DNA of 64,000 nt from Ampullaceana balthica. Taxonomy: Eukaryota; Mollusca; Gastropoda; Lymnaeidae. The first letter of the stretch is position 1. The number at the start of each line of letters is the position of its first letter. The notes under the pieces are model-generated. The model was not told the DNA's origin. It worked only from the letters and a program-made list of their open reading frames with translations, and searched no databases. A program made the position numbers and the translations under genes. The DNA lies in assembly GCA_944989445.1 (NCBI GenBank), contig CALYLW010000012.1:475001-539000 (forward strand), given 5' to 3'. This document shows, piece by piece, positions 4,253-57,839 of the stretch.

Positions 4253-4545
4253 AAATATAATTTATACCCTTGTATTATGTTGACATAATACAAGGGTATA
4301 AATTATATTATTTTTTTTAAACGAGTTTAAAAAAAAAGAAATATAATTTATACCCTTGTATTATGTTAACATAATACAAGGGTATAAATTATATTTAATT
4401 TTTTTTAACGAGTTTAAAAAAAAAGAAATATAATTTATACCCTTGTATTATGTTAACATAATACAAGGGTATAAATTATATTTAATTTTTTTAAACGAGT
4501 TTAAAAAACAAATTAAATATAATTTATACCCTGTATTATGTTAAC
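4253..4545. repeat. Tandem array of perfect palindromes
   Basis: About 3.5 units of roughly 87 bp. Each unit holds an inverted repeat of about 58 bp (TATACCCTTGTATTATGTT and its exact complement around a GTTAAC or GTTGAC centre) plus a smaller palindrome TTTTAAACGAGTTTAAAA. The fourth unit stops at the palindrome centre (GTTAAC/AGGATAAC). Each unit could extrude a long hairpin. Confidence 0.9.
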
Positions 4546-5532
4546 AGGATAACACTTGAATAAAGAGACATTTCCAAAATTCCAATTTTTTTTAATTGAG
4601 TATTTCTAAAAACATGTTATTTTACTGAATAGAACATAAGTACTTTTTTTTATTGCAACAGTGCCATTACCTTTATAGAAAATATTCCTGAATTTCTTGG
4701 TGGAAACATTCCTGAAAGTAAAAAAAAACAAGCAATGGAGGAAGCACACATATACTAGATCTCGATATGGTCTCTCCTTAAAGTGTCATAACCCAGCACT
4801 AACAATATGTGACCAAGTCATCATTCAGTGTCAGATGTCTGAAAAAGTCAAGACTGAGTGATTCGAGGTTAAGATTCTTCTGGCATTCCTAGTTCTCAAG
4901 ACTTTAGTTTAAAAGATTGTAACGTATATTTCATTCCCCCTCCCACCACAGCTCTAAGTTCGCTAAGACTTATTGCAATTTGCCATACTGAGAGACATGA
5001 TATATGTGTCCTTGAAGGCTGTTTGTTTAAATGTTTTCAGATGCTCACTAAGAACTATTTTAAAGCAGGACACTGTCTTTTAATCCCCATTACTTTGAAA
5101 AAAAAGACCGTTACACAAATACACGTAATTATGGTCATTCGAATACTCACCCCCTGTCTACGAATTTATCCATTTGACTTTCCCATCGTGCAGGCTTCAC
5201 ATGTTCTTATTTCCATTGAAGACTTAGCCAAGGGAACAAAACTTATCTTCATAATTTATTATGGGAGTTAGTTCCTACCCTGTATCTTTGTTGTTTTTAA
5301 AACTTCCAGTTGAGACGTCAACAGTTCTTTGTAAGGCCTTCCTTCCGTTGCCATGTATCTTCTCTTACTCATTGTAACTTGCCCATTAACGTGTTTGCTT
5401 TTATTATATATATTTCAGTTTCCTCTACATCATTTGTGTGTTGTGTATGTCATGTATGTATGTGTGTGTAAGTATGTGTGTTGTTCCCCAGTTTTCTTAC
5501 CCTTGCGGGTCTCATTTGCACACAAAAAGGAC

Positions 5533-9012: not shown

Positions 9013-11071
9013 CAGTGGTTCCTAACCTTTTGGGGTCCATGCACCCCTTCAGATGCCCAAAAACGTTCATGCACCCCCTCGTGAAACTTGCAGAAAATGC
9101 ATAATAAACTATGTTTATTTTAGGAACACAATAGTTTTGACCATAGGCAACAGGGAATGTAGTGAGAGATCTGATGTTTCTTGTGATCAATCAGCGATTT
9201 AAAATTTGGGGACTGTTTTGGACAAAGCAACTCTCATGTCATCCTCTGCATTCAACGTATTCCTTTCCTTTGTTTTAATCGTCAAAGGTGGGGAGAATCT
9301 CTCAGTAGCATCCATAACAGTCACAGCAGGTCCTTGGAGAGATGTGTTCAACTCATTCAAGATGGTGAAGATGTCAACCAGGTATGCCAAGTAATGAATG
9401 AAATTTGGACAGTCAAACTTGTCAGCAAGTTCACTCTCTTTTTCTTGCATGAAAATGGAATGCTCCACTCTCAGTTCTACTAACCGAGAAAGTATTCGTC
9501 CCCTGGACTACCAGCACACCTCAGTGTGGGAGAGAAGAACTTCATGCTCAGAGCTCACCTCCTGACAGAACAACTTAAAGAGGCGGTGGTTCAATGCATG
9601 TGAGCGGATAAAATGTACAACTTGGAATGCACTAGAAAGAACTGACTTCAAGGTTGGAGATAGAGTTTTGCATGCCAGTGCCTGACGATGAAGAATACAG
9701 TGTGTAGTGACAATATCTGGAACTTCTTTATTTACCAGTGCTGAAAATCCTGACTTATTACCGAGCATGGAGGAAGCACCACCTGTGCAAATTTTAAAAA
9801 ATCTTGAAGTCCAGTCAAACTGGTTTTCAGTGAAGAATATCCTGACTAGCTGCATCACATCAGCAGCTTTGGTAGTAGCTAGGAGTGGCTTACAAAAGAG
9901 ACATCCTCCTTCAGCAATCCACTGAGAACATATCTCAGAAATACAAGAATCTTACTGCATTGTGCTACATCAGTGGATTCATCCAGCTGCATGCTAAATG
10001 GAAAAGGACTGCTTCTCATCTCGCACAAGACTTGATCCAGAATGTCTGCAGCCATGTCACTAATCCTGGAATGAATAGTGTCATTGGACAAAGGAACTTT
10101 CTCAACATGCTTCCTCTGCTGGTGACCACACATCAGTTCCACCATCTCCAGAGCACAAGGCTTCACCAAATGTCTCCAATGGTGTGGGTTTTCTTGTTCT
10201 TTGCAATAAGATATGCAACCTTGAGTGATGCCTCCAGTGCAGATTTCTGTGACAAAGAAAATCCAATCTTGGGAAAGGTACCTGAGGTCAAGAAGCGAGC
10301 TCTCTTCTGCTTGAATATCTCAACACTGCCCTTGGAATTGGATGGATGGACTTTCTCCAAGTGCTCTCGTAGTCTAACAGGCTTCGTGTTGTCATTGCAC
10401 AGGATTTTTCCACAGTGGAAGCACTGAGGCTTTTGTGTTCCATCTCTCTCTCCTTTTTTAAAATTATTTATTAACGATTTTGAGGGGGTGATGACAATTG
10501 GAAAGTCGTACCAGTCACAGGCAAATTTTTAACTGACAAAGTTGATGTTTTTAATGACCTGAATTGGATGCTCAACTCAAGATTTTAGGTTTCAATGACG
10601 AATAATGGCTTACAATTAACGTTTTTAAGACCTTTGCAGCGTACAGAGCAATAAAAGTGAAGGAAAAAAAATCCCAACATTTACATCCGCTCAAAACAGT
10701 TAGAGGGTCACCGGAAGAGATATATCTGACGTATTTGATGACAAAATTAAATTATTTTTAGAAAACTGTGACGTAAAACACAAAATTCCGAAGAACACAT
10801 AAAGCGAACTGTTCATTTTGCGAAAGTTTTTTCATCAATTTTCGACATGCGCAGAACGATGCACGAAAGAGTTAAAAAAAAAGGTTGTATATGGGAGCCT
10901 TTTAACGCGGCATGGCTTGCTTATGGTTTACATTTTCAGATTATCAGTTTTTCTTCCTTTTTTTTTCTTTCTTTCTCTTTTTCTTTTTTTTTCTCTGAAT
11001 GGTTCATGCACCCCCTGGAACCTCCTCATGCACCCCTTGGGGGTGCATGCACAACTGGTTAGGAACCCCTG
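9013..11071 (-). mobile_element. hAT element with ZBED/Buster-like transposase relic, 8-bp TSD
   Basis: Left end CAGTGGTTCCTAACC and right end inverted CAGGGGTTCCTAACC, then shared TGCATGCACCCC subterminal repeats. The target duplication TTCTAATG is perfect at 9005-9012 and 11072-11079. The 2059-bp body carries a degenerate transposase on the - strand. The element interrupts what was continuous AT-rich DNA. Eight-base duplications and CAG-starting TIRs define the hAT superfamily. Confidence 0.9.
9200..10437 (-). pseudogene. hAT transposase relic with BED finger (ZBED5/SCAND3-like)
   Basis: Reading from 10437 down: a BED zinc finger C-F-H-C-G-K then L-R-E-H-L-E-K-V-H (C2H2 spacing of a BED finger), then F-L-T-S-G-T-F, then QLDESTDVAQCSKIL, then (different frame) GGASSMLGNKSGFSALV, T-H-C-I-L-H-R and S-H-T-E-V-C-W, then (after a stop) F-I-H-Y-L-A-Y-L-V-D-I-F. 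These are in the order of the RNase H-like core and insertion domain of ZBED5/FAM200-type hAT transposases. At least two frameshifts and stops break it, and the C-terminal dimerisation domain is missing. It is therefore inactive. Confidence 0.8.
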
Positions 11072-26261: not shown

Positions 26262-27612
26262 ATATGATAATAATAATAAATTGGTAATTTTTATAGCGCA
26301 GTTTTCCAGCAAGGAGCCGGAGATAATAACATTATATAATAATATAATAAACATTCTCTACATAATAACCACAAAAATAACAGTACAATACACATAACAA
26401 ACGTTAATCATTAAAAAGAAATGTGTTTCTTTAATTTTTGAAAATACATTATGAAAAGATGTGTCTTAAGTGCAGTTTTGAAGGACTTGGTAGATGAAAT
26501 ACTCCGGATGTGTAATGGTAGAGAATTCCATTGTTTGGCTGCACAAAAAGAGAATGAACTTTCGCCAAATTTTTTTGTTCGTGTCTTAGAAACACAGAGA
26601 ATGCGCGTGTCTGCAGAAGAGCGTAGCTGACGACTTGGTGAGTAGACCGACAGAAGCTCAGTAAGATAGGAAGGGCATGAGTCAGAAAAGAAGTTGCGAA
26701 AGAGAACGGCCAGTTTGTAATCAATTCGGGCTTGTATAGGTAGCCAATGAAGTGAGTAAAGTAGCGGAGTAACATGGTCATGTTTTTTTGCCATTAGAAC
26801 TAATCTGGCAGCTGAATTTTGAACTTTCTGTAGTTTTTCAATGTATTGTTTTGGCGCACCTAACAGAAGAGAATTGCAGTAATCCATACGAGCTAGTACA
26901 AAAGCACAGACTAGAGTTTGTGTGGCACTAACTGTTAACTAATGACGGATTGAGCGGATCTGTCGAATGGCAATTTAGTCAGAGCGACAGATGTGATTGA
27001 TGAAGCTGTTGGTAGACATATTATCATAATGTAGCCAAGATTGCTAGTCGATGTTTTGAACAGTATATCAGAACTAGCCACCTGGATAGAATTCGGAAGA
27101 GACAAAGTATTGCGTGATTTATTGTTGCAGAATAGGAGTGCTTCTGTCTTGTCATCATTCAGTTTGAGCTTGCTGAAAGTCATCCAAGACTTTACCTCCC
27201 CAATGCACTCTTGCATCAATTTGACAGTGAAGTCAATATCAGATGGATCAGTGTGAGTGTTAAGCTGAGTATCATCTGCAAATGATTGACTTTTAACTGA
27301 ATGCTTTTCGAGCAGTAGAAGTAGTGGTCTTGGATACAGCACGAAAAGTACCGGACCCAAAACTGAGCCCTGAGGCACACCATAACCCAAGTCAGCTCTG
27401 TGAGAGATACAGCGATCTACTGATACCACATGTGATCTGTTTGATAAGTATGATTGAAACCAAGCCATAACTGAGCCAGAAATTCCAAAATAATTTTGCA
27501 GGGTTTTTAGAAATGTTTGATGGTCAACGGTGTCAAAAGCAGCACTAAGATCTAAGAGGACCAATATAGAGATTTTCCCACTGTTTAGTGCGAGTAGGAG
27601 GTCTTTTGTTAC
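26262..27612 (-). mobile_element. 5'-truncated CR1/L2-like LINE
   Basis: The reverse transcriptase part runs from about 27612 down. It is cut at its 5' side (sequence beyond 27612 is unrelated) and ends in an ATA-repeat tail near 26270. The 3' region contains TTTTTATAGCGCAG. It is inserted in the peptide gene's intron, opposite in orientation. The clade is judged from motif style only. Confidence 0.8.
26411..27612 (-). pseudogene. LINE reverse transcriptase fragment (two frames)
   Basis: The first frame (27612-26935) has L-D-L-S-A-A-F-D-T-V-D-H, Y-G-V-P-Q-G-S-V-L-G-P-V-L-F, the catalytic F-A-D-D-T-Q and L-N-D-D-K-T-E, i.e. palm and thumb of a non-LTR reverse transcriptase. After a frameshift near 26950 a second frame (26887-26411) has M-D-Y-C-N-S-L-L-L-G-A-P, L-Q-K-V-Q-N-S-A-A-R-L, and the usual A-K-Q-W-N-S-L-P-L-H-I-R ending. 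The endonuclease domain and first palm motifs are gone. Inactive. Confidence 0.85.
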
Positions 27613-48239: not shown

Positions 48240-51200
48240 GTGAGCGATTTAAAATGATTAATACAAATACTGAGTAATTTTTTGTAATGTTTTAGATCTT
48301 CATTTCGTTTTCAATAATTTAAAATGATTTTTTGTAATCGAATATGCGTGGAATGGATCATTTTTGTAAGGTCTGGAGATCAACGGATCTTTCCATTTTG
48401 TCATGTCATGGGACGAGAAATCGGACACGCAATTACAGGAGATGTGGCACGATGATTTGCTGCTGGATACCGAGGCTGAAAGGCACAGTTACAGCACAGG
48501 TGAATTATTTGACACGATACTGCCACAACTACTGTAAGATAATTATTTTTTAACACGTTTTTATTAACTCGCTTTCGTTCCTGTTTGTTTGTCTGTCCAC
48601 AATTTTTTCAAATCTGCCAAAGTAAAATTAAACCACTTTTGATGGCTCTAGAGATCTCAAAATTTTACCACAGATAGATCACGGATGACAATGCATTGCA
48701 TCAAAATTTCAGATCGATCGAATGTACCGTTATTAAATTATTGAACTTTTTAGTTTATCTATATTTAAGCATATGTATTATCCGTCTGCTCTTGCTTACA
48801 TTACATTCACGTGCCGAGCTCACACCAACCCTGACCACATCAACCATGTTTAACATCAAGAGGAGATCAGTCATTTCCAGTCTGTAAATGTTTGTCGGGT
48901 AATGCGTATTATATTTGAATATAATCAATACTTCAAAACTCACCATATCATACACTTAGAATAAAATGAATAAAATTAAATAGAAGTAAAAAAAAAGATT
49001 ATTAAAAACCACGTATTTATAAGTGGACTAAAAAGAAAAAAGTAACATTTAAAATTTAAAATAAGTACCATGATGTAATATGACTAAAAACGTGTGCGGG
49101 CGCTTTTTAGGCGTTTGGCTAAAATGATTAGGGTTTACAAATGACAAGTAAGAAGATGAGTGAATTGAATTAGTTAAGCCTGAGAAGCGCCCACCCTACG
49201 TTTTTAGTCATATTACATTGTGGTAGTAGATTTGGGTTTTAAATTTTTAAATTTTATTTTCTGCTTTTTAATCCGCTTATAAAAACGTGGTATTTAAAAA
49301 TCTTTTTTTTTGTACTTCTATTTATTTTATTAAAAGCATTATTTCTTTTCCAAAACTGAAAACTTTATGTTTCTGCGAAAATGTTCAATTTTGAGTAACA
49401 TCATTCCAAGTCAGCTGACATGAAGTTGAATTATAGATATAGACATCAGGGAACGGCACGTTGGGCGGAAATGCTAGGGTTTCTGTGAGTGGATTATTAC
49501 CTTAGTCTTAAAGAATGGCTTTGTTGCGACGAACCAATTTCAGTTTTGATCTAGCTCTTTATTGTCGCTGAGCCGAGTAGCGTTCACATGTTGTGGACTA
49601 CAGTCTCTCAGAAACACCAAATAGCAGTCTGAAATTAGCTGTAACTCTAACAGTTAAGGTATTTGAGTTATGCTATGATGTGGGTTCCAGCTGAATGCAT
49701 AGTCATCGGTCTGTTGTGTCGACTTGGTAACAATTGTACTGAATTAAAATACCTATAAAGGTAATCGCAGTGTAACACCCCATTGCGCAGGTCATGAACA
49801 AGACCCTGGCCTGTATGTGTCAATTTAAGTTCTGGCCATAAGTCCCCACCCCCTGCTTCCATTCAGTCAAAAATGGGCCACGGGCTCTCGAGGATTTCGC
49901 ACAGTGATATTAGATAAGCTTCACATTCATGTGCACTGAAGAAAAAGCTTCTGGCTGGATAATTTTTTAACGAACACCTCTGCTGCAGGCTAGTGATTAA
50001 TTTCACACCAGATTTCATATCAAACACTATGATCCAATAGAGCAGGGGTCTCCAAACTACGGCCCGCGGACCACATGCGGCCCGCGAGGCCATCTCATCC
50101 GGCCCCTGTAGACCCTTTAATCTAAAAAAAAAGATAGATACCATTTTTATCTTTAGTTTACCACAAAACTGTGTGTAGTCGGCCCCCAAACTGTTGTTTG
50201 ACAGTTAATGCAGCCCTCCGGCAGAAAAGTTTGAAGACTTCTGCTCAATAGAGCATTGTTTCTGTTCACAAAACAAGTAATACATAAAATATACAGTTAT
50301 CTGTTAAAAATTGTATCGGCAATGTATGGGAAATGATGGGATGTTAAATTTAATTTTTAACAAAGAAATGCTAATTATTTCTTAAACCCATGGAGCCGAC
50401 TGCGGGCAATAATATTTCTGTATATTGAAAATAATATGTCTGTCTATGCAAATAAATAAGTCTGTCAATGGTCAATAATATGTCTGTTTATGGACAATAT
50501 TATGTCTGTCTATGGAAGATAATACGTCTGTTTATGGACAATATTATGTCTGTCTATGGAAGATAATACGTCTGTTTATGGACAATATTATGTCTGTCTA
50601 TGGAAGATAATACGTCTGTTTATGGACAGTCAGGACGACGCAAAAGGGCAGCCAATACGGACGATTATGTGCGACACGGGCCGGAATGCGTCAAAAGACA
50701 AGAGCAGCTGGCATCGGCGAGCCTTGATGGACGGGTCAAGAGAGGAAGCGCCATTCACGTGGTCATCATGACTGAGGAGAAGGAGCAGGCGAGGATGACA
50801 TGTCATTACTGCAACGGTCACGAACTGGCAGGTGTGTAACGGTAACGGATTGAACGATTTGTGCTGGTAACATATATACTGATTTTAAATGAGAATAGAT
50901 TGACATGTTTGTAAATGGTAATTGAGTTGAGGGTTTTTATTAGTCCTTGTGGTACTGTGGTCTTCTCATTAATTGCACTTAGTGTTTTTTAATGTTCCTA
51001 AATCGTTACAATATTGATTTAAATAAGTAGCTTTATAATTTCATATATTGACATGTTTTTATAGACCTGCATATGTCAGAGATGTCTAACGTTGACAGGC
51101 TAATAACCATAATTCCATGGTTTGTCCTTGCAAATATTTGATGGTTTTCATTAAAAAGCCCCAGAGAAGGAAGTAATGTTTGTTTATAAAGAAAGTAATA

Positions 51201-54200
51201 ATAAAACCTGTTTATGTGGTTATGTACATATACATGTACTGTATTTAATTAAATGTTTTTTTCTGAAATGTGTATCATGCATTTAAAACAGAAGACTTTG
51301 ACAATGTTCACAATCTTCTGTTGTACCACCAGGTAAAACACAAGACTTTGACAATGTTCACAATCTTCTGTTGTACCACCAGGTAAAACACAGACTAAGA
51401 CTTTCACAATGTTCACAATCTTCTGTTGTACCACCAGGTGCACCCCAGACTAAGACTTTGACAATGTTCACAATCTTCTGTTGTACCACCAGGTAAACCA
51501 CAGACTAAGACTTTCACAATGTTCACAATCTTCTGTTGTACCACCAGGTAAACCACAGACTAAGACTTTCACAATGTTCACTATCTTCTGTTGTACCACC
51601 AGGTAAACCACAGACTAAGACTTTCACAATGTTCACAATCTTCTGTTGTACCACCAGGTAAACCACAGACTAAGACTTTCACAATGTTCACAATCTTCTG
51701 TTGTACCACCAGGTAAACCCCAGACTAAGACTGAGTTAGACGCTGAAAGGGAACAACGCATTTGGTACAGACTAGCGCGAAAACAAAGTGGCAAACATTA
51801 TAAGGTAAACCTATTTAATCAAATTGAAATTTTTAAAAAATATAAAAAAACAACAAAAGCAAAAACAAAACATAATAATTATTATTATAAAACATAAATA
51901 AATAAAACAAAATAAATAAATCCATTTCGCTTTGGTTAATTAAAGTCAACAGACATGGTAGCCTCATTTGGAAGCTATGAAAATAGTAATACGAAATTAT
52001 ACATGAACATTCTCTGTGGTGCAACAACAGAGAAAGAGAAAATATTGAATATTTTATAAAGGTACCACAACTATCATTACTCACTGATAAAAGAAGGAAC
52101 AAAGTGATCTAAGTAAATTAAGAGCAACATGTATTTTAAAATGTAATATTTTGTTTAAAAAAAAACAAACTCAATCTTACTTCAAATTTATTGCTACAAC
52201 AGGCTACAATTTTTGTTTTGAATTGCAAACTATAATTTTGTTCTTAAGTTCAGTATTTTGTCTTTTATTTAACTAAGCAGTGGAAGTAATTATGGTCAAC
52301 GCAAGGATATGAAAGAATTAGTTAACAATATGTGGGTTTATTAAAGACAATCTATACACATCTATAAAAATGTACTTTTCTTTATTTCGAATTATCATTG
52401 TAAAATGTCTTGATAAATATCAGTAGTTTATTTTACGTGGACTTTCATTCCTCAACTTTTTCGTTTCCTCAAAAATTTTCAATAATTATTTCTATATTGT
52501 TTAAAAAAAGATTAAAGAGGTTAAATTAGATATGCACGACGACCCTTCCCAAAACCGTGTCTTCGTCACGAGCAGCCACACTCTTGTTATCGAGGACGCC
52601 ACGTCTGATGACGCAGGAACATATTTCTGTATGGACTCATCAACTGATCTAGATGTTAAAAAGTTATCAGAGGAAAATATTCAAGATTTTTTAAAGGTAA
52701 GACAAGATAATCTCAAAGAAGCTAAGATATTTGAAACCAAATTCTTTCGCTAGTTCTATGGGGATAAAGAATTATTTTTTTTAAATATCGATATACATAA
52801 CTACCTTCAAAACATCGATCTTGAGCCATTTACATGTAGATGTAGAACACCTGTCAACTATCCATCCATCCATCATTTAATCCTTCATTCCGTCTGTCTG
52901 GCTGTCTATCGGTCTATATATCTAACTGATCTCATCTAATCCATCGTTCTGTCTGTTAATCATCTATATATCTTATCTCTCTATCCAGCCCAACTCAAGT
53001 CTCAAATTTTTGTACCATCTGGACGTCATAAAACCCTCCAATCTAAAAGCTCTGCTGGTGACGCCGCTGGACAAGGAAACTCTGCTGGAGATCGACAAGA
53101 AGAGGAAGACGAAACTGGCCGAGCTGCCGAGACCAGCCCCACCCAAAAGTATTTTGGAACACAACGTGATTGTCACCACTGTCTGGCAGGTCAGTGGTCA
53201 TCTAGACATGTCATCAGATAGCCGTACTGACAGTACAACCGTTCGGTTGTCTGAGGCTTTTAGCGGAAACATTGGGCTCTCTCAACACTTTTTTTTAACA
53301 AATGGGAGCTTTCCACAATTTGTTTTGACAGTTTACATTGTTATTTGAAAGTACGGCTGACCTTGACTTGACCCGTAGTTTATGTTAGTTTAACTGGTAT
53401 GAAGTTGAAAATGCTATTACGAAAGTATATTGTGAGCCAAAATGTAATCATTACTGAAGCTAAAATACTAACAGAGAAAAAGAAGCCACCGTCGACAATT
53501 AATTTAACTGAAATCACTGTTATCTTAAAAGTACATCGATTTCATTGTGTTTAAGTAGTCTTTTCAAGACGACGCAAAATATACGAACATGTCCTTTAAT
53601 TTTTCTTTTAAAATTTCTTTCAATCCAATATGGAAATTAAGTCTGGATTTATAAAGAATTTTCAATGTCAAATTAGATGTTTTGTATTTAACTTAATAAA
53701 AAAAATGCTATTAAAAATTAAACACAAGATACCAAAAAAATTATGCTATCCCCAAACATTAAGCAAAAGCTTTATTTAAGGGAAAATAGACAAGGTTTAA
53801 TTTATTGTTTTCACAACACAATCCATTTGTGTATCTTGTAATTTGTTATAACACTTTTTCACAGTCATATTTTGCATTGCATTTTAGTATTAACAAATTT
53901 TTAAAAAAACTTAAAAAACTAATTATCATCCCAATTTTCAAAACACATGTTAATAAAATAAACATTGTCTGATTGCGTATTTTCTATTAGTTTAAAGATT
54001 TTTCACTTCAGCATGATGTTTCTATAGCAGTGACAATGAAGCAGTGATAGCTGCTTCTTAATAATCTCATGGAGTAACTCTGCTATATTGTCATTCTTCA
54101 TTCTTCCCGTCGCTTTCATATCTTATGAGAACAAAATAATTTTTTTCATTCAATTCCGCTGCGTCCGGATATAAATAAATAGCTTTTCCCTAGGAGTCAC

Positions 54201-57200
54201 ACGTGGTCGCTGGAATTAGAAGCTCTTGGCATGCCCACATCCCAGTTTAAGGTGTAGAAGTTCTAGCTCTGAAGTTTGTTATACGTACGTTATTCCTACA
54301 TGTATTTATTTGAATGCCGTTACGACCAGGACTGGAGCAGCTGCTCGGTGTGCGGTAAACCAGGGACCAGACGGCGCATGGGAGACTGTTACGTGCTGAA
54401 GCAAGAGCAGAGCAAACCGGCCATACCTTGGTACTTGGAGATCTTGCTTGCATCCTACATCCAGGGAGTCCCTTGTCTGTAAGTGTGTGATAGGACTCAT
54501 TTGAAATGTGGGTTTACGTGGTGAGTTTATGAAAGGAAAACAATTTAAAATCGGATGTAGAAACGGTTTAGCCGAAGATGGATTTTTCATATACATTATT
54601 GCTGGTATTTTAAAATCGGAAAGTTTTGGGTTTTAAAATATTATAAACCTAAAAGAGAAAAAAAATGTGTGAAATACATACCAGGATGTCTCTTTTTAAT
54701 GGCATCACGAGGCAAAGATTGAGGTGTATAAGGAACACAAAGCCTAAAGAACCGGCTCAGTACCGCAGTATTTGAAAATAAATTAGCCTCCTAATAGGTT
54801 TTTGTAAAAAGGCTGCGTTTTTATAAGCAATCCCTTCCGAAAGTTCCCGGAGAAGAAGGGCACAGGAAGAACTCTTTTCACGCGCGTTCATTGGATTCAG
54901 CTGGCCAAATTTATGGAATATTCTTCAGCAATTTTAGAAGAAGATTGACAAAAAAGACAAACTGAATAATAATTTGAAGACATTTTTATTTAAGACAGTT
55001 TTTTTAACATCAGAGCGCGACTGGCATGCTAGACAATCATGTATAGGTAACGCTATAAGAACATGATAGCGCGACTAGCATGCTATAGGTAGCGCTATAG
55101 AACACGGCCGTTTTGATTATCATAACAAAACACAACTTCTAACATGAAAGATATTGAAGGGTGGGGTGGAAGAGACGAAGACTAGAAATTACTCTGGAAA
55201 GCCAGCTAGGGTCTAATAAAAACTATCGGATACACCCGAAACTAACTGTACTATAAGCGCAGCACCGAGAAGATTGGAGCATTCTCAACAATGGTCAAGA
55301 TCCAGTTTGGGTCAAGGACAAAAGTAAGAGACTCTTTTAAAAAATGCTAAGGACATTTTAACGCTCAAAAAGATGACTAAAGAAATAATAAAGCGCTAGG
55401 CTTGGCTCAATGGTAAGTGAATCAAAATTAAATGGTAACTCCTTTGCTGTTGTAAAATGAAACCCCATTTCCCGGGGAAGAAGTCTTTTGAAAGCATCGA
55501 TTCTATTTATACAATGCATAGACCAGCTCCAATCTTATACATAAACCATCTCCTAAACGCAAACAAAATTATACACTATATCAATGAAAACACATGTTAT
55601 GAATTAAACTTAATATGATTCACAGATAAAAATAATTAATTACATTTTAACGTAGAAATTTCTCTTCATAAGAAAGAATGGATTTTTATAAAGTTTCCTT
55701 GCGTATTGTTTGTGTTCAAGTTCTTCTGTGTTTGATGAACAAAAGAGTCTTCTGTCGGCCGTGTCACGACCCAATGAGGTCGAGGAAGAGGAGTGTGAGG
55801 TGAGCTGCACCAACTACAGCGTCACGGTTGATGACCTCATAGTGGGCACTGGACAGAAACGTATCAAGGAGTCTCAATTCAAGGAGAACGAGGGAGACAC
55901 GATCACCTTGAAGTGTCCCAAGGCCCCCGTGGATATGCCCGTGGCTTGGATAAATGGATCAAGGTTGGATAGGCGATAAATTATACTCTTACAAAAATAG
56001 ATTATATTTTTCAGTAATGATACATCTTTTAAAGGGGTGAGAAATTTGTCTAAGTATTGAGGAAAAAATTCTTACTCATTAAATAAATATTCTCCAGAAA
56101 ACATATCGGTCTGCCACCGTAAAAAACAGACAAAGTTCCATGTTTATGCGTTAAATAATCTTCTTAAAAACACATACACTATCATTGGTACGTAGTATTT
56201 TCTTTTTTCTTATGGCAGTATAACTTTTGATGTCAAATATTCAGTGTAAAATGCAATGCTCATAACTTAAATACCTTATGACCTTATGCTGTGTAAATTG
56301 GGTCTATGTGTTAAACAAACAAAAGAGTTAGAGCGTTAAAAAAACATCGGGAAAAGTGGTAGAAATAGCTGAATAAACATTAAACAGTCCCTACAACTTT
56401 TTTTGTCTTATTGACATGGCAATACATAGTATTACAAGAGATACACTTTGACATGACAATACATAGTTTAACAAAAGATACACTTTGACATGGCAATACA
56501 TAGTTTAACAAGAGATACAGTTTGACATGGCAATACACAGTTTAACAAGAGATACAGTTTGACATGGCAATACATAGTTTAACAAGAGATACAGTTTGAC
56601 ATGGCAATACATAGTTTAACAAAAGATACACTTTGACATGACAATAAATAGTTTAACAAGAGTTACAGTTTGTGAGGGTGAGGTTAGTAGTGCATTCAGT
56701 CTTGGTAGAAAAGAAGCTATTAAACAGGGCATTTGTAAATCTGAGAAAAAATGAATAAAACAAAGAACTTTTTGGCAACGAGACTTCCTCTGTCTCAAAT
56801 AAAAAGAAGAGGAAACGAGTAAAAGTTTATAGAATCAGAAAAACGTTTACTGAATACTTATTTAGTTGTTTCCAGTACTTAAAATGTAAATGAACCATCT
56901 GCTATCACACTAGATGAAAACAAAGGTTAAATTTATTCACAGCTTTACAATCTCAAAGATCGAAGATCGGCCTTGTCATGTCGTGGTAGAAATATATTAA
57001 TATAAATATCCGTGTTGTTCATTCGAACACTAATAATCAATACTGTATTTCTTGGAGACTTATCTACAAAGATATTTGCTAATTTTACATACATTGGATT
57101 CAGCTTATGGTACTTGACAATTACTTTTACTTCTTATTCTGTTTATTAAAGACCCACGATATTATCATTATGACTCCTGTTTCCCAATTTTAAAATTAAA

Positions 57201-57839
57201 AAGCTACATTTCTGCACACGTATTTAACGTATTGTTAAGTCAATTTACATATATGCTGAAGAACATTATTTAAAGATAGCCTTGTCTAAAAATAGTAGCA
57301 ATGCGTAATGAGATATAACGCTTCGCTGTCTGAGAAATGACAAACTCGGTTTTTCGGAACTCAATCCCAAACTGTCTAATGTTGTGTCCAGGGTACTGGT
57401 TGGACCATGGCTACAGGATGAGACTGACGGCCGCGTCCTCATCGACGCCAACAACAGCCTAATCATCACCTCTCTGCTCCCGACGGACGGCGGGCACTAC
57501 GCATGCGTCTACGGCGGTCGCATCAAAGGTCGCATCCGTCTTGAGGTCAAGGCCAAGAAGAAACTCAGCAAGACGTTCCGTTACGCCTACTACCTGTTGC
57601 TGACCTACCCGGTGGACCTGATCCTGTTCCTGGTCCTACTCTACGTCAGACACAAGGAGAGGGACAAAGTTCTTAACTACGATCTACTCCCCGTGTTGGA
57701 GTACGACTCTGACAATGAAGAGGAGGAGGAGGAGGAGAAGAAGGATGAAGGGAAAGAAGGGGTTGTCGATGACGGGGAAAAAACTCCAGATATAGACTCG
57801 GATGAGTTAGGTCAGGAAAATCCTGGAATGACCGTGTAA
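48170..57839 (+). CDS. FAM187-like two-Ig-domain type I membrane protein, 9-exon gene
   Basis: Joined exons: 48170-48239, 48371-48499, 50634-50831, 51713-51804, 52511-52696, 52989-53189, 54330-54478, 55721-55963, 57392-57839. The total is 1716 nt, 571 residues plus TAA. Every junction is GT-AG and every phase matches (1,1,1,0,0,0,2,2). Domains: signal peptide 1-24; acidic segment 25-67; RRKR at 68-71; Ig-like 1 with C123, W150 and D-A-G-T-Y-F-C203; W294-S-S-C-S-V-C-G with C312, resembling a thrombospondin-1-like turn; Ig-like 2 with C407, W418 and G-G-H-Y-A-C461; membrane span about 487-508; tail 509-571 with a run of seven glutamates. Possible N-glycan sites are N28, N373, N420 and N443. From memory of the family, FAM187A/B share this order, including the W-C-C-G-C module between the Ig domains. 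Function is unknown; a cell-surface adhesion or recognition role is inferred only from Ig domains. Exons are clearly richer in G+C than the introns. The weakest parts are exons 1 and 2. Confidence 0.85.
48371..48499 (+). CDS. Exon 2 of FAM187-like gene, 129-nt symmetric cassette
   Basis: Acceptor TTTTTGTAAG/GT and donor ACAG/GTGAAT frame 129 nt, phase 1 on both sides, so it can be included or skipped without changing the frame. It encodes 43 residues rich in Asp, Glu, Leu, His and Trp (LEINGSFHFVMSW at its start). The next exon opens with RRKR, so this segment could be a propeptide. The same frame continues past the donor to a second possible donor at 48535 (CT/GTAAGA), but that one leaves a phase that no good acceptor of exon 3 matches. 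Confidence 0.5.
48566..49312 (-). mobile_element. Fold-back plus Helentron-like composite element, copy 2
   Basis: The reverse orientation of copy 1: a Helentron-like half (from TATTAACTCGCTTTCGTTCC to ACTTCAAAACTCACCATATC) then a fold-back at 48996-49312 with arms of about 105 bp. The end near 48566 reads, inverted, GAAAGCGAGTTAATA, the same terminal motif as the 11251 array. It lies in intron 2 of the FAM187-like gene. Confidence 0.7.
50043..50245. mobile_element. Short hAT MITE in intron 2 of the FAM187-like gene
   Basis: CAATAGAG is duplicated at 50035-50042 and 50246-50253. The ends are CAGGGGTCTCCAAACTACGG and inverted CAGAAGTCTTCAAACTTTTC; CGGCCCGCGG lies near the left end, as in Charlie/Buster-type elements. 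Two extra bases (CT) lie between the right TIR and the duplication. About 200 bp, non-coding. Confidence 0.75.
50420..50633. repeat. 44-bp minisatellite abutting exon 3 of the FAM187-like gene
   Basis: About four copies of TCTGTCTATGGAAGATAATA plus CGTCTGTTTATGGACAATATTATG. The final copy reads TTTATGGACAG instead of TTTATGGACAA and runs straight into the acceptor GTCAG/GACGACG. Confidence 0.85.
50634..50831 (+). CDS. Exon 3 of FAM187-like gene (furin-type site, start of Ig domain 1)
   Basis: The acceptor GGACAGTCAG/GA restores the phase-1 codon as Gly. Residues 68-71 are RRKR, then the segment with C85 and the first Ig cysteine C123 in M-T-C-H-Y-C. The donor is GCAG/GTGTGT, phase 1. A minisatellite runs into the acceptor. 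An AG four bases upstream (after 50629) would give phase 0 and would fit only the alternative leader exons far upstream. Confidence 0.75.
51283..51712. repeat. 55-bp minisatellite carrying splice acceptors before exon 4
   Basis: Eight copies of the phrase TTGTACCACCAG followed by GTAAA(A/C)C or a close variant, with AG ending at 51332, 51382, 51437, 51492, 51547, 51602, 51657 and 51712. The last one is the acceptor of exon 4. Each unit continues CAGACTAAGACT, the same as the first codons of the exon. Confidence 0.92.
51713..51804 (+). CDS. Exon 4 of FAM187-like gene (Ig domain 1, core Trp)
   Basis: The exon starts GT AAA CCC after ACCACCAG and completes the Gly codon left by exon 3. It encodes the core W150-Y of the Ig fold (R-I-W-Y-R-L-A-R-K). 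The donor is AAG/GTAAAC, phase 0. Its first 20 bases match the unit of the minisatellite immediately upstream, so the authentic acceptor is the last of eight near-identical ones. Confidence 0.8.
52511..52696 (+). CDS. Exon 5 of FAM187-like gene (end of Ig domain 1)
   Basis: Acceptor TTTAAAAAAAG/ATT, donor AAG/GTAAGA, phase 0 on both sides, 62 codons. It carries the V-set signature S-D-D-A-G-T-Y-F-C, giving the second Ig cysteine C203, followed by an acidic/lysine-rich linker. The motif order is that of family Ig domain 1. Confidence 0.85.
52989..53189 (+). CDS. Exon 6 of FAM187-like gene (inter-domain segment)
   Basis: The acceptor is pyrimidine-rich (CTCTCTATCCAG/CCC) and the donor is CAG/GTCAGT; phase 0 on both sides, 67 codons. 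It encodes a Leu/Lys-rich stretch (KPSNLKALLVTPLDKETLL) with no cysteines, ending V-I-V-T-T-V-W-Q. This leads directly into the W-S-S-C module of exon 7, as the F-W-x-W region does in vertebrate FAM187A. Confidence 0.85.
54330..54478 (+). CDS. Exon 7 of FAM187-like gene (W-x2-C-x2-C-x11-C module)
   Basis: Acceptor CGACCAG/GAC, donor TCT/GTAAGT (strong), phase 0 in and 2 out. It encodes DWSSCSVCGKPG, an arginine cluster, then GDCYV and a closing V-P-C341. The module resembles the W-x2-C-x2-C-G turn between the two Ig domains of FAM187A and, loosely, a thrombospondin type 1 repeat. It is the most family-specific part of the protein. Confidence 0.85.
54836..55030 (+). pseudogene. Possible LINE 3' end relic in intron 7
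   Basis: A broken + strand frame reads A-F-I-G-F-S-W-P-N-L-W-N-I-L-Q-Q-F then L-N-N-N-L-K-T-F-L-F-K-T-V-F. This resembles the common LINE ending (A-A-P-x-x-W-N-x-L-P ... L-K-T-x-L-F). It has stops. The match is short and the call is weak. Confidence 0.35.
55020..55105. repeat. Short duplicated segment
   Basis: GCGCGACTGGCATGCTAGAC and GCGCGACTAGCATGCTATAG, each followed by a TATAGGTAGCGCTATA-type sequence, about 50 bases apart. Confidence 0.6.
55721..55963 (+). CDS. Exon 8 of FAM187-like gene (start of Ig domain 2)
   Basis: Acceptor TGTGTTCAAG/T completes a Leu codon left by exon 7; donor AAG/GTTGGA is weak but in phase 2, matching exon 9. The exon encodes a Glu-rich stretch, C367 and C371, and the first half of Ig domain 2: G-D-T-I-T-L-K-C407 and V-A-W418. 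High G+C and codon bias contrast with the flanking introns. Confidence 0.85.
56414..56675. repeat. 37-bp minisatellite in intron 8
   Basis: About seven copies of TTTGACATGGCAATACATAG plus TTTAACAAGAGATACAG. Confidence 0.92.
57392..57839 (+). CDS. Exon 9 of FAM187-like gene (Ig domain 2 end, membrane span, acidic tail, stop)
   Basis: Acceptor TTGTGTCCAG/G completes an Arg codon. It encodes R-V-L-I-D-A-N-N-S-L then T-D-G-G-H-Y-A-C461, a basic stretch (KAKKKLSK), a hydrophobic span of about 22 residues around 487-508, R-H-K-E-R as stop-transfer, and a 60-residue tail with seven consecutive Glu. TAA is at 57837-57839. No AATAAA was seen in the next 800 bases; an ATTAAA variant is near 58062. Confidence 0.9.

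Follow-up and report, generated by a model that had tools for sequence, protein, structure and literature searches.

The junction between intron 3 and exon 4 of a single-copy gene in Ampullaceana balthica is multiplied eightfold by a 55-bp tandem array, which we interpret as a splice-junction minisatellite. Its upstream copies are probably tolerated decoys, so that the array would be tolerated by the gene rather than selected, and protein homology places the predicted working acceptor in the last copy. Coordinates refer to the window, i.e., the whole 64,000-nucleotide stretch analysed, in which the relevant elements are arranged as follows.

48376..48499, + strand: exon 2 (start approximate), donor ACAG/GTGAAT; placed by tblastn with P0001 (E 0.001)
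50407..50628, + strand: second minisatellite, 22/44-bp unit (TRF, unit listing)
50634..50831, + strand: exon 3, phase-1 donor GCAG/GTGTGT (tblastn with orthologues)
50832-51712, + strand: intron 3, 881 nt (exon placement)
51292..51732, + strand: 55-bp tandem array across the intron 3/exon 4 junction (TRF, unit slicing, one genome match)
51292..51297, + strand: upstream copy of the AAGACT direct repeat bounding the duplicated unit, with its exonic partner at 51727-51732
51325..51662, + strand: seven upstream CACCAG/GT sites, predicted decoys (premature stop from each if used alone; U1 duplex energies)
51713..51804, + strand: exon 4, 92 nt, starting with GTAAAC at copy 8; own donor AAG/GTAAAC at 51805 (orthologue alignment, donor and junction energies)
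52511-52696, + strand: exon 5 (tblastn, splice phase)
52989-53189, + strand: exon 6 (tblastn, splice phase)
54330-54478, + strand: exon 7 (tblastn, splice phase)
55721-55963, + strand: exon 8 (tblastn, splice phase)
57392-57839, + strand: exon 9 (tblastn, splice phase)

The gene product is a membrane protein with Ig domains (Pfam Ig_3, E 1.3e-8) and a C-terminal hydrophobic stretch, the latter judged by eye; presumably, the gene resembles the FAM187 family. Orthologues are found in Bulinus truncatus (P0001) and Physella acuta (P0002) with 57-61% overall identity, relatives that would suit a freshwater pulmonate snail, and a second protein search adds Elysia marginata, whose model apparently begins at exon 5. 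To locate exons 2 to 9, we combined tblastn with the orthologues and splice phase. Exon 1 was not found in this placement, and the name “exon 4” is therefore provisional. At the chosen splice sites, exons 3-9 form one open frame, in which exons 5-9 (52511..57839) encode the remainder of the first Ig domain, the second Ig domain, and the C-terminal part including the stop. The gene is single in the 1.1-Gb genome: a protein query returns seven matches, all of them exons of the gene itself, and an array-free paralogue that could represent the state before the expansion is thus absent among them. The peptide across the exon 3/4 junction, ELA-GKPQTKTELD, aligns to ELAGKAQTEDEKD in Bulinus truncatus and to EEAGKEQTEEEKD in Physella acuta. 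Since both orthologues align here, the predicted exon start is copy 8 at 51713, in agreement with the preliminary description, which had named the last copy as acceptor of a conserved Ig exon.

TRF reports 8.1 head-to-tail copies with a period of 55, 95% matches, and a score of 784, which places the array among the minisatellites (10-100 bp unit). Eight ACCACCAG/GT sites lie on the plus strand, with the GT at 51333, 51383, 51438, 51493, 51548, 51603, 51658, and 51713. The longer motif ACCACCAGGT starts at 51325, 51375, 51430, 51485, 51540, 51595, 51650, and 51705, and is absent from the remainder of this strand of the window. Successive sites are 50, 55, 55, 55, 55, 55, and 55 bp apart, the first unit being 50 bp long. 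The array had been described as eight copies at a spacing of about 55 bp, which is correct for the number of sites and for six spacings, but not for the first. The donor-like hexamers, previously summarized as GTAAAC-type, are GTAAAC in copies 4-8, but GTAAAA in copies 1-2 and GTGCAC in copy 3. Seven junction copies are intronic, followed by copy 8 as the putative working copy. Variation is confined to 2 of 35 intronic columns (all eight copies) and 4 of 20 exonic columns (copies 2-8); the AGGT core is unchanged in 8/8 copies, which is little informative given the few changes overall. Three stacked CAGGTAAR motifs at array spacing give three matches in the window, all within the array, and were obtained in 0 of 100 dinucleotide shuffles. 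In the genome searched (1,097,344,711 bases in 3363 contigs), the array sequence has a single match, which argues against a dispersed repeat. A coding array was rejected as well, as the unit carries stops.

Each copy carries branch-point-like YTNAY motifs at -32 and -23, and its CAG follows an AG-free zone of 36 nt and 65-70% pyrimidines. As donors, the sites reach a U1 duplex energy of -8.6 kcal/mol (site 3: -7.1), calculated, like all duplex energies here, for pairing with the U1 5' end. A value of -8 kcal/mol is reached by 1.9% of 1500 sampled GTs, and the seven placed donors of the gene range from -5.4 to -9.5 kcal/mol, with -6.8 for the exon 4 donor AAG/GTAAAC. As the junction reads CAG/GT, each copy is acceptor-like and donor-like together, and every unit is flanked in an intron-like (GT...AG) as well as an exon-like manner (AG/.../GT). 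Judged by their sequence context, all eight CACCAG/GT borders are thus candidate dual-specific splice sites in tandem, and the earlier proposal that each copy is both an acceptor and a donor holds for the juxtaposed anatomy of all copies.

If used alone and without further splicing, all seven upstream acceptors lead to a premature stop. The stop follows after 19 codons for acceptors 3-7, where it is the TAA at the next unit border, after 23 codons for acceptor 2, and after 54 codons for acceptor 1, which remains open longer because unit 1 comprises 50 bp. The earlier notion that use of any upstream copy runs into a stop is hence correct, while a TAA at the next unit applies to acceptors 3-7, but not to acceptors 1 and 2. 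The accompanying argument that the other frames shift because 55 is not a multiple of three has to be dropped: the frame is set by the phase-1 exon 3, and the distance to exon 4 is irrelevant. Among the 128 possible sets of included units, 122 contain a stop, while six are open and in frame, namely the set without any unit and five sets that pair unit 1 with unit 2, 4, 5, 6, or 7 (35-residue insert). Skipping of exon 4 shifts the frame.

The borders of the unit point to its origin. AAGACT is found at 51292, at 51342, and then every 55 bp up to 51727, where it falls within exon 4; the 55-bp distance between copies on either side of the junction is suggestive of slippage. The ancestral state would have been a single segment with one intronic and one exonic AAGACT at this distance. 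As suggested by the microhomology, the first duplication most likely arose by slippage or misaligned repair at this short direct repeat. The duplicated 55-bp segment would comprise the terminal 35 nt of intron 3 together with the initial 20 nt of exon 4.

Of the resulting acceptors, only copy 8 is predicted to lead into an open exon. Because exon 4 is short (92 nt) and its flanking introns are long (881 nt and, after exon 4, 706 nt), the exon is likely recognized by exon definition, which would favor the acceptor nearest to the exon's own donor, i.e., copy 8. This cross-exon proximity rule has been tested for donors in minigenes with identical sites and 365-nt introns, and has transcriptome-wide support for acceptors (PMC9225289); the rule was derived outside molluscs, and its identical-site test concerns donors rather than acceptors. 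The same source recounts that, of two competing acceptors, classical experiments favored the upstream one (PMC9225289), and copy 1 would thus be favored if intron definition rules intron 3. Rare use of an upstream acceptor would add whole units, introduce a stop, and probably cause decay of the transcript; the array itself is probably neutral for the gene.

Alternatively, the competing upstream acceptors could send a share of the transcripts to decay, and copy number would set the protein level. The premature stops from 7/7 upstream acceptors alone and in 122/128 inclusion sets would suit such unproductive splicing, as would the acceptor features common to the copies (YTNAY at -32 and -23, 36-nt AG-free zone), and an intronic VNTR that affects ABCA7 splicing offers a precedent (PMC5954066). 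Nevertheless, we regard this explanation as unlikely: stops in most inclusion sets would be expected of any non-coding unit, 5/128 sets stay open with a 35-amino-acid insert, and exon proximity predicts little upstream use.

It is likewise improbable that the array works as a recursive ratchet, in which exon 3 joins an upstream copy, CAG/GTAAA is regenerated, and re-splicing advances by one unit at a time until copy 8 is reached. With 50-55 nt, each step would be close to the minimum size of an intron. The sequence does contain AG/GT sites at which joining to the preceding exon would restore a donor: the reconstituted exon 3/copy junctions are predicted donors of -8.5 kcal/mol at 7/8 sites (-7.0 at site 3), a strength beyond the -8 kcal/mol that few sampled GTs attain. 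However, the exon 3/exon 4 junction again reads CAG/GTAAAC, a predicted stronger donor than that of exon 4 itself (-8.5 versus -6.8 kcal/mol). A ratchet would therefore run past copy 8, where it has no sequence-based stop, and would skip exon 4 with a shift in frame. The human exon junction complex keeps junction donors of this kind repressed (PMC6224609). If this applied in the snail, repression would protect exon 4 but freeze the upstream intermediates, thereby blocking the ratchet; the fly junction complex is seemingly weaker in this respect (PMC6224609), and repression in the snail cannot be presumed. The long intron typical of ratchet points, albeit not an absolute feature, is absent, as intron 3 measures 881 nt. 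Human introns below 1,000 nt preferred conventional lariats (PMC10156609), and fly recursive sites are commonly located in introns above 40 kb (PMC6110457). On the other hand, the human introns with recursive lariats vary more in size than had been assumed (PMC10156609), and human AGGT sites serve as both site types 3.1-fold above expectation (PMC10809524). Taken together, the preliminary reading of the array as recursive sites, as a ratchet, or as a device for tuning splicing is not upheld in view of the AAGACT repeats 55 bp apart, which suggest slippage, the lack of a clear motif enrichment described below, the 881-nt intron, the proximity rule that predicts copy 8, and the missing stop for a ratchet.

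Tandem arrays are liable to assembly error, yet a wrong assembled copy number or a pseudogene is very improbable here, as the variable columns (2/35 intronic; 4/20 exonic in copies 2-8) make several copies distinct, and exons 3-9 form one open frame with 57-61% identity to Bulinus and Physella in a gene that is single in the genome.

The splice-junction minisatellite is situated in an array-rich window, in which 18 arrays, picked by us from 50 TRF rows, cover ~8%. AGGT is present on either strand in 7/18 of their unit consensi. The second minisatellite ends 5 bp before the start of exon 3, and the acceptor is absent from its repeating unit. Two consecutive introns of the gene, before exons 3 and 4, thereby end in arrays, which is not beyond chance (P 0.11). 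In total, 2/7 placed acceptors (exons 3 and 4) and 0/7 donors lie in or within 10 bp of a window array. On random placement, at least two acceptors are touched with P 0.11, which gives no clear sign of a special clustering of arrays at window acceptors, and at least one of seven with P 0.46; an array at an acceptor is therefore unsurprising in this window. Elsewhere in the window, an 87-bp tandem unit (3.4 copies, 4253-4546) contains a long inverted repeat, open frames on the minus strand at 26411-27612 and 9199-10528 resemble LINE reverse transcriptase and hAT/ZBED-type transposase, and 50043-50250 resembles a hAT-derived element, all as judged by eye.

Genome-wide, three stacked CAGGTAAR motifs occur 6547 times (3773+2774) compared with 5756 (2989+2767) for the reversed pattern (1.14x). 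The corresponding counts are 1425 (993+432) versus 1688 (1076+612) for CAGGTAAGT (0.84x) and 427 (244+183) versus 609 (372+237) for TTTTGCAG (0.70x). Stacked splice motifs are hence not clearly enriched over the reversed control; the ratios are rough, as much of each count stems from a small number of long arrays. Among the matches listed for CAGGTAAR and CAGGTAAGT, we distinguished 18 arrays, all in the first contigs and hence a non-random sample, of which 17 were inspected (C1:195189 was excluded). Three of the 17 begin at the donor of a homology-supported exon, one has weak support, six follow an open frame only, and seven have none of these; since a donor motif served to select the arrays, an association with genuine donors is to some extent inherent in the sample.

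L049: donor-side array, 6.6 copies, at an ABCA transporter exon (ABCA3 in PDB sequences, E 3e-22; no meaningful Pfam match)
L057: donor-side array, 5.3 copies, at an amiloride-sensitive channel exon (Pfam ASC, 4e-6)
L058: donor-side array, 17.7 copies, at an RCC1 repeat exon (Pfam RCC1, 1e-20)
L042: donor-side array with weak support (EB module, 0.0084, worse than the family cut-off)
L040, L041, L051, L054, L055, L059: arrays beginning where an open frame lacking homology ends
L039, L050, L052, L053, L056, L060, L061: arrays not at the end of an exon-like frame

The window array and, on the donor side, L049, L057, and L058 thus each lie across or directly beside a homology-supported exon boundary. 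The open frames before the array comprise 46 codons in L040, 49 in L041, and 54-82 in L051, L054, L055, and L059. The peptides of L051 and L054 have no match in Pfam or PDB sequences, and those of L039, L040, L041, L055, and L059, searched against Pfam only, none in Pfam. The ten donor-side arrays have units of 29-59 bp and 4.5-83 copies, the maximum belonging to L059, which is supported by an open frame only. In 7/10 (L040, L042, L049, L051, L054, L058, L059), the array starts within the exon, 12-36 nt before the donor. These arrays fill the start of the next intron with donor copies, thereby mirroring the window array. Here, the first copy would be the predicted working site, and both array types would obey a single proximity rule. 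Open frames of 50 or more codons are found upstream of 8/17 arrays versus downstream of 2/17 (background rate 0.23; Wilcoxon p 0.10), an excess that is suggestive only. In 8/10 arrays, CAGGTAA has diverged less than the remaining unit sequence (Wilcoxon p 0.105), the exceptions being L040 and the window array (0.041 versus 0.030, with its AGGT unchanged). Given this p value and the ascertainment of 9/10 arrays by that very motif, we do not claim selection on the splice core.

Several known systems share features with the window array. In human polyubiquitin UBC and in VCX3A, tandem dual-specific splice sites have been described, with use in UBC shown by RT-PCR (PMC10809524). As in these genes, the AG/GT unit borders could act as acceptor or donor, units could be kept or removed, and repeat expansion drives the array (PMC10809524). 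In contrast to the coding units of UBC, whose length is a multiple of three, the snail unit of 55 bp is mostly intronic, and its inclusion would nearly always introduce stops. Further, unlike in UBC and VCX3A, only the last border would open a unique exon, which in the snail is deduced from sequence. Human internal tandem repeats at exon-intron boundaries of duplicated genes similarly overlap junctions and can alter splicing; they create novel introns in recent paralogues, whereas the snail junction is multiplied within its own intron in a single gene (PMC2812944).

Tandem duplication of AGGT segments as a route to intron gain was reportedly described by Hellsten (2011) and Zhuo (2007). A review states that this mechanism has in vivo support (PMC3443670). 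There too, the duplicate yields a matching donor and acceptor and can be spliced out (PMC3443670); by contrast, the snail duplication would have lengthened an existing intron, with ~460 nt before the array, instead of creating one. The juxtaposed acceptor and donor are shared with recursive sites and RS-exons, and the donor-motif start of exon 4 would fit a putative RS-exon as characterized in PMC6224609, PMC8605326, PMC6110457, and PMC10156609. The short intron, the eight sites in 380 nt, and the tandem-repeat origin set the array apart from recursive sites and ratchet points. Our literature search on duplicated acceptors and mollusc minisatellites, which left subscription papers mostly outside its scope, returned nothing direct and no described mollusc case. 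The distinguishing features are the multiplication of a junction in its own intron, a unit length not divisible by three, the single productive acceptor that is predicted, and the donor-side counterparts in the same genome.

These counterparts raise the possibility, which we put forward tentatively, of a recurrent gene change in this minisatellite-rich genome: junction-spanning expansion in tens to hundreds of genes and on both exon sides, after which a single working site would remain at the exon edge next to a few, or perhaps as many as 80, intronic near-copies, with correct splicing ensured by cross-exon proximity alone. If so, such genes would serve as natural experiments on spliceosomal choice between equal sites, and the process would provide a route for introns to lengthen from their ends. 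Artificial minigenes are a frequent means of studying how sites of equal strength are chosen; with eight near-identical acceptors 50-55 bp apart, the snail gene offers a natural test that bears on the proximity rule, its leakiness, and the stepwise removal of copies. It also suggests how a duplication across an AG/GT junction can be harmless, because the added sequence can stay inside the intron. We consider this wider class of splice-junction arrays the part worth following; a ratchet or a tuner is neither proven nor the simplest explanation of the array.

Two observations concern individual arrays. The 47-bp array of L040 (~73 copies) has an intact AGGT in 49% of its copies and lacks it in 51%, with an otherwise low divergence of 0.7%, which indicates two unit types. 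In addition, C47:2789135-2789406 and C1:3189158-3189543 contain arrays of ~44 and ~42 bp, respectively, with stacked TTTTGCAG, and are possible acceptor-side junction arrays.
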